DNA from: a bacterium
GTDB taxonomy: Bacteria > JAMCPX01
Assembly (NCBI GenBank): GCA_021789095.1
Contig: JAJYJX010000007.1
Span: 1 to 27,642 of the forward strand
DNA: 27,642 nt
Direction: 5' to 3'
The number at the start of each line of letters is the position of its first letter. Positions within the stretch are counted from its first letter, which is position 1. Positions 8,499 to 24,364 of the stretch are shown piece by piece. The translations under genes and the position numbers were made by a program. The notes below the pieces were generated by a model. It was given only the letters and a program-made list of their open reading frames with translations, was not told the origin of the DNA and did no database searches.

Positions 8499-9986
8499 TT
8501 AATAGTACATGAAGCTTGAGAAATGGGCAAAGTACTGGAGCGGCGCCCACCAAACGCCGAACAGGATCGTCGGCACGAGCAGGCTTATGACTATAAGTGC
8601 AGGGAGTACGCCAATCGAAACCCGCCTGGCGGGCTGCGGCGGGGACTCCAGGTACATCTTTTTTATAATCCTGACATAATAATAGAGCGACACAACGGTG
8701 TTCAGCACGGCAACAACAACAAGCCAGTAAAGGCCCTTGTCTATGGCGGCAATGAAAACGACCACCTTGCCTATAAAGCCTGCAAACGGCGGTATTCCTG
8801 TAAGCGAGAAAAGAAAGATGGTCATCGAGGCAGACAGTACCGGCGATGTCTGTGCAAGCCCGCTGTAATCATTGATGTCCTCCGAATGTATGCTGTTATC
8901 AACGATCATGACGATGACAAAGGCGCCGAGGTTCATAAAAAAATAAATTATCAGATAAAGCAGTACGGAACTTATTGCATCCTGTGAAATGATGGACAGC
9001 CCTATAAGCATATACCCGGCATGGGCTATGCTTGAATATGCAAGAAGCCTCTTCAGGTTGTTCTGCGGTATTGCCACGATATTGCCGATCGTCATGGTGA
9101 ATGCAGAGATAATGGCAATGATCAAAAGCCATTTGATCGGGCTCGCATTAACATATGACTGGGTCATACTCATAGAACTTATGTAAGCCGTATAAAAAAA
9201 CCTCAGGAGTACCGCAAAACCCGCTGCCTTGGACGCTACCGCGAGGAGTGCAGTCACGGGTGTCGGCGCACCCTCGTAAACATCCGGCGCCCACATGTGC
9301 ATAGGAGCCATCACTATCTTGAACCCGAAGCCGGCGAGTACAAACAGGGTTGCGACATAAAGTGTGACCGGCGGATAGCCGTAATTCTGGAAAGTAGTCA
9401 GGATATCCTTCAGGTTCAGGGAATGTGCTATGCCGTAAAAGAGCGACATACCGTAGAGCATGAACCCGGATGCGATGGAACCGTATATGATATATTTAAG
9501 ACCGGCTTCTTTTGACCGTCTTTCTCCCTTTGTGTACGACACCAGCATATACGACATGACGCTGAGCAGTTCCATCGACAGATAGATCATAAGGAGATTT
9601 ATCGAACTCGCCATCATGGACATGCCTATGCCGAACCCGCACAGGATCGCCACAAACTCCCATTTCCCCCGGGAATCCTTGACCTCACGCGAACTGAAGG
9701 ACATAAGCAGTACATATATTACAGACACGTAGGCTATGATCCTGAAAAAAAGGCTGAATGGATCTATGGCTATCATACCATAAAAAGCAGTGTCCAGGGT
9801 AAGCCTTGTATAGAGTATGATTGTGGCAGCAAGCGCTCCGAGCATACCGAATATGCCTATGTAAAAAGCCCCGCTGCCCCTGGAATGCCTGATTGTCATT
9901 GCACCGGTGAGCGCTGCAAGGGCGGTAAAAGCTGCGATTAATTCTGGTGCTATTAAAACAAGTGATCTGATGAGGTCTGTTTGCAT
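8499..9986 (-). CDS. nuoN: NADH-quinone oxidoreductase subunit N (proton-pumping antiporter-like)
   Basis: NuoN is one of three antiporter-like membrane subunits of complex I. The hydrophobic protein of about 495 residues contains the conserved glutamate in MIYLSMELLSVMSYML and the lysine in GFGFKIVMAPMHMWAPDVYEG, the proton-channel residues of the family. I place the start at the ATG at 9986 because AGGA lies eight bases upstream; the ATG at 9992 would leave only two bases. It is the last gene of the nuo operon, 13 bases after nuoM, and converges on the crotonase gene with ten bases between stops and no visible terminator. Confidence 0.95.
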   Translation of the reverse strand: MQTDLIRSLVLIAPELIAAFTALAALTGAMTIRHSRGSGAFYIGIFGMLGALAATIILYTRLTLDTAFYGMIAIDPFSLFFRIIAYVSVIYVLLMSFSSREVKDSRGKWEFVAILCGFGIGMSMMASSINLLMIYLSMELLSVMSYMLVSYTKGERRSKEAGLKYIIYGSIASGFMLYGMSLFYGIAHSLNLKDILTTFQNYGYPPVTLYVATLFVLAGFGFKIVMAPMHMWAPDVYEGAPTPVTALLAVASKAAGFAVLLRFFYTAYISSMSMTQSYVNASPIKWLLIIAIISAFTMTIGNIVAIPQNNLKRLLAYSSIAHAGYMLIGLSIISQDAISSVLLYLIIYFFMNLGAFVIVMIVDNSIHSEDINDYSGLAQTSPVLSASMTIFLFSLTGIPPFAGFIGKVVVFIAAIDKGLYWLVVVAVLNTVVSLYYYVRIIKKMYLESPPQPARRVSIGVLPALIVISLLVPTILFGVWWAPLQYFAHFSSFMYY

Positions 9987-16330: not shown

Positions 16331-17449
16331 CTACCTGTCTATCTCCGGGAGTATGATATCAAGGCTCCCGATAATGGCGACAAGGTCCGCTATCATTACT
16401 CCGCCGGATAATTTCGGAACAATACTCAGGTTAGCAAACGACGGCGCCCTGATCTTCAACCGGTACGGCTTTGTAGAGCCGTCACTGATAAGGTAGAACC
16501 CGAGCTCGCCTCTCGGATTCTCCGCACGCACGTACACCTCCCCTGCCGGTACCTTCAGTACCTTGGGCACTTTTGCAATGTGATCGCCCTGCTGGAACAT
16601 ATCAATGCACTGCCTTACGATCTTTGCCGACTGTTCCATCTCGTATATCCTCATCATGTACCTGTCCCATGCATCGCCGACCCTGCCCATCTCGCCCCTG
16701 CCGACCGGTATGTCAAAATCGAGTTCATTGTACATGAGGTATGGTTCTTCCCGCCTCAGGTCCCATTTTATGCCCGATGCTCTGAGGTTCGGCCCCGTTA
16801 CTCCGTAATCGAGTGCATCTTCGGGGCTTATCACTGCTATATTGGCAAGCCTTTTTATGAATATCGCGTTGTAAGAAAGCAGATCGTTGTATTCCTTTAT
16901 CTTTGGAGGAAAATAATCCAGAAACTCCTTTGTCTTATCAATAAACCCATCCGGTATATCCTGCGCAACGCCGCCTATCCTTATGTAGTTATACGTCAGC
17001 CTTGCTCCGCATACCATTTCAAAAAGGTCGTTTATGAATTCCCTTTCCCTTATGCCGAAGAGAAAAGGCGTAAAAGCACCCATGTCCGACGACAGTGAAC
17101 CGAATGCGATAAGGTGGCTTGAGATCCTGTTCAGCTCCGCCATTATCACCCTCAGGATCTGCGCCCTTCGGGGAATTTCTATGTTCAGCAGCTTCTCGAC
17201 CGTAAGTGCGTATGCAAGGTTGCAGTTCATGGAGGCGAGGTAATCCAGCCTGTCGGTGAACGGTGTAAACTGGGGGTAGGTAAGCCTCTCGGCTATTTTT
17301 TCGAGTGCCCTGTGGAGATACCCTATGTAAGGCGTTACCCTGCTTACGACTTCGCCGTCGGTCTTAATGAGCAGCCTCAGGACCCCGTGAGTGCTGGGGT
17401 GCTGGGGTCCCATATTAAGGTCCATGAATCTTTCGTCAACAACCGCCAT
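16331..17449 (-). CDS. nuoD: NADH-quinone oxidoreductase subunit D (49 kDa homologue)
   Basis: NuoD, with NuoB, forms the quinone-reduction site. The 372-residue protein starts MAVVDERFMDLNMGPQHPST; the GPQHPSTHG hairpin with its quinone-site histidine is at 14-22 and the TDRLDY tyrosine segment near 65-70. It is a separate gene here, not fused to nuoC as in E. coli. The ATG follows the nuoC TAA with no gap. Confidence 0.97.
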   Translation of the reverse strand: MAVVDERFMDLNMGPQHPSTHGVLRLLIKTDGEVVSRVTPYIGYLHRALEKIAERLTYPQFTPFTDRLDYLASMNCNLAYALTVEKLLNIEIPRRAQILRVIMAELNRISSHLIAFGSLSSDMGAFTPFLFGIREREFINDLFEMVCGARLTYNYIRIGGVAQDIPDGFIDKTKEFLDYFPPKIKEYNDLLSYNAIFIKRLANIAVISPEDALDYGVTGPNLRASGIKWDLRREEPYLMYNELDFDIPVGRGEMGRVGDAWDRYMMRIYEMEQSAKIVRQCIDMFQQGDHIAKVPKVLKVPAGEVYVRAENPRGELGFYLISDGSTKPYRLKIRAPSFANLSIVPKLSGGVMIADLVAIIGSLDIILPEIDR

Positions 17450-18979: not shown

Positions 18980-18995
18980 TGGTATATAAAATGCA
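18980..18995 (+). promoter_or_regulatory. Sigma-54-like box upstream of the first HD-GYP gene
   Basis: TGGTATATAAAATGCA keeps the GG-N10-GC spacing of RpoN promoters but departs from the consensus at four positions (C4, C6, G7, T12). Thirteen of 16 bases match the box at 21169-21184 in front of the second HD-GYP gene. The predicted start near 19006 would fall at the G9 tract and leave a leader of about 15 bases to the ATG at 19021. An imperfect dyad, AGACT/AGTCT, lies just upstream at 18965-18980. Confidence 0.35.
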
Positions 18996-19005
18996 TATAA
19001 CTGTA

Positions 19006-19014
19006 GGGGGGGGG
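19006..19014 (+). repeat. Nine-guanine homopolymer in the ribosome-binding region
   Basis: Nine consecutive G residues lie six bases before the ATG at 19021 and form the only Shine-Dalgarno-like sequence (AGGGGG) for the HD-GYP gene. If translation instead began at the in-frame ATG at 18991, the tract would encode three glycines. Length changes by slipped-strand mispairing would alter ribosome-site spacing in the first case or the reading frame in the second. Confidence 0.85.
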
Positions 19015-19020
19015 TATTAT

Positions 19021-21039
19021 ATGGAAACTCCCGTGCAGATAGAAGAAACATTGGACAGGAGTGCACGTGCATTGAAAGCTATCATGCAATGTCACTTTGC
19101 GGTAATGCACGCAAAGGATGAATCCGGTCTTCTTAATGATATATGCAGGATCGTAGTAGAAAAGGGTATATACAGGTTTGCATGGGTCGGTTTTGCCAGT
19201 CATGACAAACAGAAGTCTATAATACCTGTAGCAAAGGCAGGGTTTGAAGAAGGATATCTTGATGCCGTTCAAATTACATGGGCCGATGAGGAATTGGGCC
19301 GCGATGCGGCAGGTATAGCTATAAAAACAGGCCAGCCTTTTTTTATAAGGAATATAGATGATCCTGATTTTGGTCCATGGGTTGCTGAAGCAAAAAAACG
19401 CGGATATGCTTCTGTAATAGCGCTCCCATTGATTATTGATTCTGAACCTATCGGCACACTTAATATTTATGCCTCGGAGTCAGATGCCTTTAATGAAAAT
19501 GAAATTAATCTCCTCATAGAATTTGCCAATGAGCTTGCATTTGGGATTAAAACCCTCCACACGCAGGCAGAAAAGGAAAAGGCTGAAAAAGAGCTTGAAA
19601 AAAATGAAATATATTACCGGTCTATCATTGAAAACTCACAGGATATGATCAGCGTTTTGAACGTTGACGGGATCATACGGTACATGAGTCCTCCTGTTAA
19701 AACAGTACTTGGTTATAATCCTGAAGAATTGATAGGCACAAATATCGTCAAAATAATACATCCTGCAGATAAAAGAATGGCTATTGAGAAATTTTTAGCC
19801 GGCATCAATACACCCGGTTTTACAAGTATTATTGAGCACCGTTTTAAACAAAAAGATGGTTCATGGCGTTTTGTTGAGGCAAAGGGAAAGAACCTCGTTG
19901 ATAAAGAAGGGGTTGCGGGCATTGTTTTTCATTACCGTGATATCACAGAGCGGAAATTAGCCGAGGAAAAGCTGAAAAAAGAGATGGAAACGATAAATAC
20001 AATGCACGAGATTGATCAGATTATCCTCTCTACACTGAAGCCGCAGCGTATCCTGTATTCCGTTCTTATGAAGGTAAACAGTTTCATACCGTGCGATGCA
20101 GCCGGGATTGCGCTTATAGATAAAGAAAGGGGAGGCTTTACTCTTGCTGCAGGATTCGGCATACCGTTATTTACAAAGGATTTGTTTATCGGGTTTTCGG
20201 ATACAAGCATGACAGATGTCGTCAGAACAGGCAAATACCAGTACATACCGGACATATCCGGCATAGCAGAACACCTGCTTTTAGAAAAAATATTTATGGA
20301 TTTAGGATTTGTATCAATTATACGGATCCCTGTTAAGATAAAGGATGAAATAATAGGCGTCGTGAAATTTATTTCAAGAAAGCCCTCGGCATTCAGGACA
20401 GATGACATGGTGGTTTTAGAAAAGCTTGCGGCACAAATATCGGTTGCCTTCTCAAACACAAGACTTGTGACAGACCTTGAAGAGCTCTCGATAGGAACGA
20501 TAAAGGCGCTTTCAAATGCCATAGATGCAAAATCCAGATGGACAGCAGGACACTCGGAGCGTGTTACGGCATATGCTGTTATGATTGGCAAAGCAATGGG
20601 ACTGGAGGAAAAAGCTCTAAATACGCTCGAGATTTCAGGGCTTCTCCATGATATAGGAAAGATCGGCACATTTGAGAACATCCTTGATAAGGAAGCAGAG
20701 CTTAGCGAGGAAAACAGGAAGTTGATCAGAGAGCATCCCGGTAAGGGTGCAGAGATCCTATCACCAATCAAGCAGTTGAAAAATATTATACCTGCTGTTA
20801 AGCACCACCATGAGTGGTACGATGGAACAGGTTATCCTGACGGATTAAAGGGTACGGTCATCCCTTTGTCTGCCAGGATACTTGCAGTAGCGGACACAAT
20901 GGATGCAATGGCTTCAGACAGGCCTTACAGAAAAGGCAGACCGAAGGAAGAGATCGTCGCTGAATTAAAGAAGTTTTCCGGTATTCAGTTTGATCCTGAT
21001 ATTATAAAGATTTTCTTACTCCTCGATATGCCAAAATAA
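19021..21039 (+). CDS. GAF-PAS-GAF sensor with HD-GYP domain (predicted c-di-GMP phosphodiesterase)
   Basis: This soluble 672-residue protein has a GAF domain at about 20-175, a PAS/PAC at 195-310, a second GAF at 325-480 and a complete HD-GYP domain at 490-672. The catalytic region shows GHSERV (His511), the HD pair in HDIGKIG (543-544), HHHEWYDGTGYPDGLKG with the GYP at 604-606, and the late DTMDAMASDRPYRK helix. All expected metal ligands appear present, so c-di-GMP hydrolysis to pGpG or GMP is the likely activity, controlled by ligands of the GAF/PAS domains. There is no transmembrane segment. The start at 19021 follows the G9 tract; an ATG at 18991 would add ten residues. The gene diverges from nuoA and has a paralogue immediately downstream. 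Confidence 0.9.
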   Translation: METPVQIEETLDRSARALKAIMQCHFAVMHAKDESGLLNDICRIVVEKGIYRFAWVGFASHDKQKSIIPVAKAGFEEGYLDAVQITWADEELGRDAAGIAIKTGQPFFIRNIDDPDFGPWVAEAKKRGYASVIALPLIIDSEPIGTLNIYASESDAFNENEINLLIEFANELAFGIKTLHTQAEKEKAEKELEKNEIYYRSIIENSQDMISVLNVDGIIRYMSPPVKTVLGYNPEELIGTNIVKIIHPADKRMAIEKFLAGINTPGFTSIIEHRFKQKDGSWRFVEAKGKNLVDKEGVAGIVFHYRDITERKLAEEKLKKEMETINTMHEIDQIILSTLKPQRILYSVLMKVNSFIPCDAAGIALIDKERGGFTLAAGFGIPLFTKDLFIGFSDTSMTDVVRTGKYQYIPDISGIAEHLLLEKIFMDLGFVSIIRIPVKIKDEIIGVVKFISRKPSAFRTDDMVVLEKLAAQISVAFSNTRLVTDLEELSIGTIKALSNAIDAKSRWTAGHSERVTAYAVMIGKAMGLEEKALNTLEISGLLHDIGKIGTFENILDKEAELSEENRKLIREHPGKGAEILSPIKQLKNIIPAVKHHHEWYDGTGYPDGLKGTVIPLSARILAVADTMDAMASDRPYRKGRPKEEIVAELKKFSGIQFDPDIIKIFLLLDMPK

Positions 21040-21298: not shown

Positions 21299-24169
21299 AT
21301 GTATAAACAGTATGACGAACAGCTTAAACATGAGGTTCAAAAGCGTATACAGATAGAGGAAAAACTTCACAGGATAATGCTGGCAATCAAGTCGCTGAGT
21401 GAATGCAACCATGCACTGGTTCATATTAACGATGAGAAAGAGCTTATGAATGTAGTATGCAAAAGTATTGTCAACACAGGCGGATACAGGCTTGCATGGG
21501 TGGGCTTCGCAGAACGTGATGATAAAAAAACTGTGAAGCCGGTGGCGTATGCCGGGTACGAGGAAGGCTATCTGGAAAAGGCAAACATCACGTGGGGCAA
21601 TGATGAGTATGGCCAGAGTCCTGCAGGCATAGCCATAAGGACTGGCACGCCGTGCATAGTAAAAAATACCCTTACCGATCCCTCTTTCGACCCATGGTGC
21701 AGCGAAGTATTAAAAAGGAGATATGCCTCATCTATTGCCCTGCCGCTTATCGTTAATAACGTAACTTTTGGGGCTCTTAGTATCTATGCAGGTGAACCTG
21801 ATGCATTTAACAGTGATGTGCGCGAACTGTTTCATGAGCTTGCAAACGACCTTGCGTTCAGGATCGAAACCATACGGATCAGGGCTGCAAAAGAGAAAGC
21901 CGAAAAAGAGCTTGAAAAAAGCGAAGTCTATTTCCGTTCAATTATAGAGAGTCTTCAGGACAGCGTAACCGTTTTCGATTACGATGGCACAATACGGTAC
22001 CGGAACTCCGGGTTCGGGGACACAAGCGGTTACAGACCAGAAGATTTGATCGGTAAAACCGCATTAAAATTTATACACCCTGACGACAGGCAGAGAGTTA
22101 TAGAAGACTTTACAAACGGTATAAAGATACCCGGCAAGACAACGGTCAGTGAGTTCCGCTACCGTTTCAAAGACGGTTCATGGCACGTTCTTGAAGCACA
22201 GATAAGGAACCTCCATGACATGCCCGAGGTTAAAGGTGTCGTGGTCAATTCAAGAGATATAACAAAGATGAAACAGGCCGAGGGGAAACTACGTACAGAG
22301 ATTACCGAGAGGAAAAAGACCGAGGAGGCACTTAAGACAAGCGAGGATCGTTTTCGTGCCATGGTACAGAACAGCTCTGATATAATATCTGTAATGGACG
22401 AGCATGGTATATTAAAGTATGTATCGCCGTCTATAGAGCGGCTGCTTGGTTATGTCCCTGGGGACAGGATCGGAAAGAGCGCACTTGATCTGCTGCATCC
22501 GGATGATATTGAAATGACCCTTAAGGCTGTGAGCGATATATTGGCCTATCCGGATCACCCTTATGCGATCGAGATAAGGTACCTTCATGCAGACGGCGTA
22601 TACAGGAACTTCGAGATAAGGGGCTCAAACCAGCTTAACAATACAAGTATTAACGGAATCGTTGGGATTGGAAGAGATGTAACAGAGCATAAGCAAACAG
22701 AATCCAACCTCAAGGAAGAGATGGAAATAACAACGAACCTCCTGATGCTTTCCGAGGCAGCCGCCCATATAACGGATGTAGACAAGTTAATGGAAAAGGT
22801 TGTAAAGTCAAGTCGCAGGATTATGGGCTGTGATATATCGCTGTCTTACCTCCGGAACAAAGAATCCGGGGCATTCATGCCAAGCAGCCAGATCGGCCTC
22901 CCCAATAAGATTGTACCCATTTTTAACACCGAACCGCTCAGTGCGGAGATTATAAAAAAGTACCTTGATCTTAAGAAGCCTGTGCTGGTCTCATTAAATA
23001 TGCCGTACAGTTCAAACGATATTTCTATGCCGATCATAAAGATTGAAGATACGGATTCAGGCAAATGGCCTTTGTTTAACTTTAGCAGCGATATAAAGGC
23101 TGCGGTCATCGTACCATTGACGAATACAGATGAGTACCTTGGACTCATAGTGGGTATGTATGCAACACAGGATGCAGGCAGGTTCACGGATAGATACAGA
23201 AAAATGATGGTGGGTATATCCAACCAGGTTTCCACAGCACTTGATCAGGCAAGGCTTTACAGGGAGTCGGTGGAAAAGACAATGGAATTCTCGAACAAGA
23301 TCGAAACTATCAGCATGATGCATGAGATCGGTAAAAGCATACTTTCAACGGTTCAGTCTCAGGGTATACTTGACTCTATGACAAGAATGGCAGGAAAGAT
23401 AGTACCGTGCGATGCCGCGGGTGTTGCCATTGTTGATGTGGATAGAGAAGGGTTTTTATATGAAGCTGGTTTCGGGGCAGAATCTTTACAAAAAGATTCG
23501 TTCATAAAATTCCGCGATACAAGTGCTACGGACATCATCAGGACAGGAAGGCCACAGTACATTGCAAAATTATCGGATATGAAAGGGCTCCTGCCTTTTG
23601 AAAAAAATCTATTGCACGAAGGGGTTATATCATTGATAAGAATTCCAATGAAGGTTAAAGAGGAGATCATAGGTGTGCTGAGTCTCGGATCCAAAAGGTC
23701 GTCCGCATTTATGCGAGAAAACCTTCTTGTCCTGGAAAATTTTGCAGACCAGATATCAGTGGCGCTGTCCAATGCAAGACTGCTGACCGATCTTGAGGAT
23801 CTTTTTATCGGGACGATCAAATCACTATCTACTGCCATTGAAGCAAAGTCAGCGTGGATAGCGGGGCATTCCGAAAGGGTAACAAAATATGCCGTTATGA
23901 TAGGGGAAGAATTGGGTCTGGACGAGAAAATGTTGAAGAACCTCAAGATTGCGGGTATTCTGCACGACATAGGCAAAATTGGTACTTATAGTATATTGGA
24001 TAAAACTGCTAAATTCACTGACAAAGAGATAGAATTGATTAGAGGCCACGCTGCCAAGGGGGCAGAAATACTGTCTCCCATAAAGCAACTCAAGGACATC
24101 GTTCCCGCTGTTAAATACCATCATGAAGCTTTTAATGGCACAGGTTATCCCGAGGGTTTAAGGGGTTAG
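21299..24169 (+). CDS. GAF-PAS-PAS-GAF-GAF-HD-GYP protein, truncated by an in-frame TAG
   Basis: This is a longer paralogue of the preceding gene. Domains in order are GAF (25-190), PAS (205-325), PAS (345-465), a divergent GAF-like region (480-655), GAF (670-825) and HD-GYP from 835. GHSERV (His857), HDIGKIG (His889-Asp890) and HHEAFNGTGYPEGLRG are present; Asn946 replaces the usual aspartate before GTGYP. Codon 957 is TAG (24167-24169). The same frame continues open for 64 residues to a TGA at 24362-24364, and these align without a gap to the end of the paralogue. The full protein would have been about 1,021 residues. The frame-keeping tail indicates a recent nonsense mutation, stop-codon readthrough or a sequence error. 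AAGGAG lies nine bases before the ATG. Confidence 0.85.
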   Translation: MYKQYDEQLKHEVQKRIQIEEKLHRIMLAIKSLSECNHALVHINDEKELMNVVCKSIVNTGGYRLAWVGFAERDDKKTVKPVAYAGYEEGYLEKANITWGNDEYGQSPAGIAIRTGTPCIVKNTLTDPSFDPWCSEVLKRRYASSIALPLIVNNVTFGALSIYAGEPDAFNSDVRELFHELANDLAFRIETIRIRAAKEKAEKELEKSEVYFRSIIESLQDSVTVFDYDGTIRYRNSGFGDTSGYRPEDLIGKTALKFIHPDDRQRVIEDFTNGIKIPGKTTVSEFRYRFKDGSWHVLEAQIRNLHDMPEVKGVVVNSRDITKMKQAEGKLRTEITERKKTEEALKTSEDRFRAMVQNSSDIISVMDEHGILKYVSPSIERLLGYVPGDRIGKSALDLLHPDDIEMTLKAVSDILAYPDHPYAIEIRYLHADGVYRNFEIRGSNQLNNTSINGIVGIGRDVTEHKQTESNLKEEMEITTNLLMLSEAAAHITDVDKLMEKVVKSSRRIMGCDISLSYLRNKESGAFMPSSQIGLPNKIVPIFNTEPLSAEIIKKYLDLKKPVLVSLNMPYSSNDISMPIIKIEDTDSGKWPLFNFSSDIKAAVIVPLTNTDEYLGLIVGMYATQDAGRFTDRYRKMMVGISNQVSTALDQARLYRESVEKTMEFSNKIETISMMHEIGKSILSTVQSQGILDSMTRMAGKIVPCDAAGVAIVDVDREGFLYEAGFGAESLQKDSFIKFRDTSATDIIRTGRPQYIAKLSDMKGLLPFEKNLLHEGVISLIRIPMKVKEEIIGVLSLGSKRSSAFMRENLLVLENFADQISVALSNARLLTDLEDLFIGTIKSLSTAIEAKSAWIAGHSERVTKYAVMIGEELGLDEKMLKNLKIAGILHDIGKIGTYSILDKTAKFTDKEIELIRGHAAKGAEILSPIKQLKDIVPAVKYHHEAFNGTGYPEGLRG

Positions 24170-24364
24170 CCAATACGATTGCTTGCAAGGGTCCTGACAG
24201 TTGCAGATTCAGTTGATGCAATGGCTTCAGACAGGCCTTACAGGAAGGCTAAATCAAGGGAAGAAATCTTACAGGAATTAAGAAGATGTTCCGGAACACA
24301 GTTTGATCCGAAGATCGTAAAAGCATTTTTACCTGTTTACACATCCGATCACCCGATTGTATGA
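24170..24364 (+). pseudogene. Separated C-terminal end of the second HD-GYP domain
   Basis: These 64 codons follow the TAG in the same frame and encode PIRLLARVLTVADSVDAM, then SDRPYRK and FDPKIVKAF. Each element matches the corresponding end of the HD-GYP domain at about 20870-21030. An ATG-less TTG could start a fragment near 24179, but no Shine-Dalgarno is visible, so independent translation is unlikely. It is either the dead tail of a nonsense-mutated gene or the readthrough portion of a functional protein. Confidence 0.8.

Follow-up and report, generated by a model that had tools for sequence, protein, structure and literature searches.

The window, by which we mean the whole stretch of 27,642 nucleotides that was analysed, carries a sensor gene of the HD-GYP (cyclic-di-GMP phosphodiesterase) type that is interrupted by a TAG codon within its last domain. 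Judged from the sequence, this TAG probably reflects a nonsense change of recent date in a gene that is redundant; RF1 would terminate translation there and give a probably inactive product. We assign this reading a probability of about 0.62. An ancestral GAG glutamate codon would have been converted to TAG by one recent G-to-T transversion. With UAG read as a stop by RF1, a protein of 956 amino acids would be made that keeps its sensor domains but whose HD-GYP domain ends before its final helices, with the loss of one metal ligand and of residues that contact the substrate.

The open reading frame (21299-24169, forward strand) and its Pfam domains describe a protein with the order GAF-PAS-PAS-GAF-GAF-HD-GYP, 956 amino acids long as written. 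It ends at TAG (24167-24169, codon 957), directly 3′ of the GYPEGLRG codons. As pointed out in an earlier note on this DNA, the same frame carries on beyond the stop; it stays open for 64 codons (24170-24361) and closes with TGA (24362-24364), and in the alignment this segment (24170-24364) completes the HD-GYP domain. With translation continued across the TAG, Pfam detects GAF and PAS domains together with a full HD_5 domain, which spans the stop (residues 842-1006, 2.8e-33) and contains the HD, HH and GYP motifs. A scan of the window's own genome with HD_5 recovered the gene at 1.2e-34, with profile positions 2-170 of 170 matched and one TAG inside. An open tail of 64 codons that matches its family from end to end is far above chance expectation. 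The tail aligns to the nearest orthologue gap-free with 78% identity. Its alignment to the tandem paralogue, previously described as gap-free to the paralogue's end, was reproduced with 58% identity over 59 codons, except that the last few residues differ in length.

Among the genomes available for comparison, eight belong to the same family and none to the same genus. Across 38 distinct homologous HD-GYP stretches (window included), the site of codon 957 is a sense codon in 37, and the sole stop is that of the window itself; this set, without a same-genus genome, holds no homologue that shares the TAG. Glutamate is the commonest residue, encoded by GAA or GAG in 21 of the 38 stretches, followed by D (6), K (4), T (2), Q (2), N (1) and G (1). 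Comparison with orthologues had been suggested earlier as a check on the stop, and the nearest one (L040, on contig C122 of genome G006, a metagenome assembly with coverage 2.1 for that contig) has GAG at this position and keeps the full tail. Since glutamate prevails at the site and the orthologue carries GAG, a single G-to-T change explains the TAG. The two proteins are 71% identical up to the stop position and 78% identical beyond it. Their architectures differ, as about 320 middle residues of the window protein (the third GAF region) are absent from the orthologue (L040, 4773-6947). The orthologue also carries a glycine at the site matching D308 of the HD-GYP phosphodiesterase PmGH, where most homologues have aspartate. 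In another genome of the family (L180, G002:C15, 2480-2620), the lesion of an HD-GYP gene falls within the corresponding short segment that follows GYPDGLKG. It is a frameshift at a run of seven G, the new frame meets TGA a few codons on, and the HD-GYP tail runs on in the shifted frame beyond this TGA.

The tail appears to be as constrained as the rest of the domain. Between the window and its orthologue, pN/pS was 0.176 for the tail, 0.220 for the part of the domain before the stop and 0.248 for the whole gene before the stop. Changes specific to the window, counted by hand as positions where the orthologue agrees with one or more outgroups and the window with none, affect 2 of 58 tail residues and 5 of 120 residues ahead of the stop (Fisher p = 1). 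The tail thus shows no excess of such changes, as expected if the stop is very recent. Had selection on it ceased for 10% of the branch, with Ks of the branch assumed to be about 0.75, about 10 amino-acid changes would be expected, and the chance of 4 or fewer is 0.03; because synonymous sites are saturated, this estimate is a rough bound. Unless it is read through, the stop would date to roughly the last 10% of the branch, an age that rests on a distant pair (Ks about 1.5, synonymous sites saturated), as no genome of the same genus is in the set. Constraint of this kind leaves three options for the stop, namely a recent origin, readthrough or a sequence error. The direction and the recency of the change at codon 957 are what we infer from these comparisons.

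Two residues near the stop deserve separate mention. The earlier description of the tail as showing no visible decay is nearly right, with one exception: three codons past the stop the window alone has arginine (Arg960), where 30 of the 38 homologous stretches have proline. It is the only oddity near the TAG. Asn946, which replaces the aspartate before GTGYP, had been taken as a hint of relaxed selection or altered catalysis. This interpretation does not hold, as asparagine occupies the position in 15 of the 38 stretches, the full-length orthologue included; it probably predates the stop and is no sign of decay. The matching aspartate of PmGH is not among the metal ligands or the catalytic residues tested (PMC4159591).

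The consequence of termination for the enzyme was assessed by mapping residues onto PmGH (numbering from PMC4159591, chain offset of 6). The equivalents of D305, a metal ligand, and of D308, R314 and K317 all lie beyond the stop, and the metal-ligand set of the protein as terminated is therefore incomplete. In PmGH, activity was strongly lowered by D305A and D308A and not by R314A and K317A (PMC4159591). A missing core helix is a more severe defect than any of these point mutations, which argues for an inactive HD-GYP domain, and on sequence grounds the 956-aa protein probably has no phosphodiesterase activity. Such a loss may be tolerable to the cell. An intact tandem paralogue with the order GAF-PAS-GAF-HD-GYP (682 aa, 18991-21039, forward strand, ending in TAA; ORF and Pfam) lies in the same window. 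Besides this paralogue and the truncated gene, four further HD_5 domains above cut-off were found in the genome. With these copies present, the stop may be tolerated through redundancy.

The strongest competitor of a recent nonsense change, clearly less probable than it but deserving serious weight, is an error of assembly, consensus or sequencing, with a sense codon at 24167-24169 in the organism itself. The draft assembly to which the window belongs, as contig C80, is fragmented and metagenome-type (2.15 Mb, 203 contigs, 92% complete), the tail is free of decay, and Arg960 could be the second member of an error cluster. Against such an error stands the survey of other genes, in which the homologous genes sampled yielded no further confirmed in-frame stop, so that the consensus appears to be generally clean. 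For this survey, 548 reference ORFs from the relatives were compared with 739 kb of the assembly, of which about 230 kb were matched, part of it by antisense or shadow ORFs. After inspection of the strongest candidates, no convincing in-frame stop in a real homologous gene outside the window was left in these roughly 230 kb. Most apparent second internal stops seem to come from reference ORFs in the wrong strand or frame or from upstream-frame extensions. A TAA in a PAS match of the genome was rejected since it is absent from the aligned stretch, and a TGA in L186 is the normal end of that gene. Scans of the genome with HD_5 (7 matches), GGDEF (8) and PAS_9 (21) likewise showed no internal stop besides the TAG of the window.

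Functional readthrough, in which UAG 957 is decoded as an amino acid by near-cognate tRNAs or by a suppressor that escaped notice and some full-length enzyme is made, is unlikely. It would account for the constrained tail as well as a recent mutation does, and in this respect the undecayed tail counts against the recent nonsense change; a C directly follows the UAG, and constrained tails past in-frame stops reportedly occur widely among prokaryotes (PMC7918605). On the other hand, the stop is shared with no homologue, and the survey gave no second candidate gene. The RNA around and downstream of the stop showed no stable structure, folding no better than shuffled sequences (z 0.03 and 1.08). 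The decoding capacity of the cell also speaks against readthrough. The genome encodes a complete RF1 (TIGR00019, 516 bits against a cut-off of 423) and an RF2 that is broken off by a contig end. The earlier note had proposed a search for pylT/pylS or an amber suppressor tRNA. In the assembly (92% complete), the only PylS profile matches are below cut-off, the best being the window's lysS, and the 39 tRNA genes that pass the Rfam cut-off all have sense anticodons, with no CUA among them. This tRNA set is incomplete, as it lacks those for Lys, Asn, Trp and Ile, and a suppressor tRNA that was missed keeps a slight probability.

Two tRNA matches below threshold were rejected as suppressors, one as a fragment of tRNA-Arg(ACG) and the second for having no CTA triplet. 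A partial tRNA-Arg(ACG) copy (L089, G000:C67, 16877-16932) lies 3.2 kb from a complete tRNA-Arg(ACG) (C67, 20163-20235), and the pair might be the attachment sites of an integrated element. A degenerate tRNA-like sequence at 9516-9581 of another contig (L090, G000:C6), below the Rfam cut-off, has a normal-looking T arm and acceptor and no clear anticodon arm.

More doubtful still is a leaky UAG in the HD-GYP loop, at which a small, perhaps regulated share of ribosomes would produce active phosphodiesterase and most would produce a sensor-only protein. If readthrough were true, the stop codon would act as a switch on a cyclic-di-GMP enzyme. Neither a general reassignment of UAG nor insertion of pyrrolysine has anything beyond the open tail in its favour, and both can be set aside given the PylS and tRNA results above and the use of TAG as an ordinary gene end. 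TAG closes 95 of the 468 closed ORFs that reach 200 aa (about 20%; 739 kb of assembly sampled) and six other window genes, namely the five listed in the earlier note (miaA, nuoK, nuoL, lysS and the TRAP gene, under the names given there) and the gene at 16331-17449. From the four explanations offered in the earlier note, a recent nonsense mutation and an assembly error are thus favoured, and recoding, conceivable only as readthrough at a low level, finds no support in the decoders, RF1, the RNA or the survey. A nonsense allele of recent origin in a redundant gene and an assembly error are the likeliest accounts of the TAG. Any nonsense mutation that is very young, like any base error, leaves a tail that looks intact, and such a tail by itself is no evidence for recoding.

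The HD, HH and GYP motifs of PmGH (PDB 4mcw) are also found in the window protein, and the equivalents of D305, D308, R314 and K317 are kept in its tail, the last as Arg for Lys; the Asp of the HHExxDG motif is Asn, as in many homologues. Unlike PmGH, the terminated protein lacks the last core helix and the two C-terminal helices. Belinky et al. (2021) described prokaryotic in-frame stops with suspected readthrough, with a focus on stops common to at least two species (PMC7918605). Like these cases, the window TAG lies inside a gene and is followed by a tail under purifying selection, but it is common to no homologue. The window gene resembles a nonsense pseudogene or loss-of-function allele with a single lesion, in that relatives have a sense codon where it has its stop, the gene is otherwise intact and a paralogue lies nearby, and it differs in carrying no further lesion yet, except the Arg for Pro close by.
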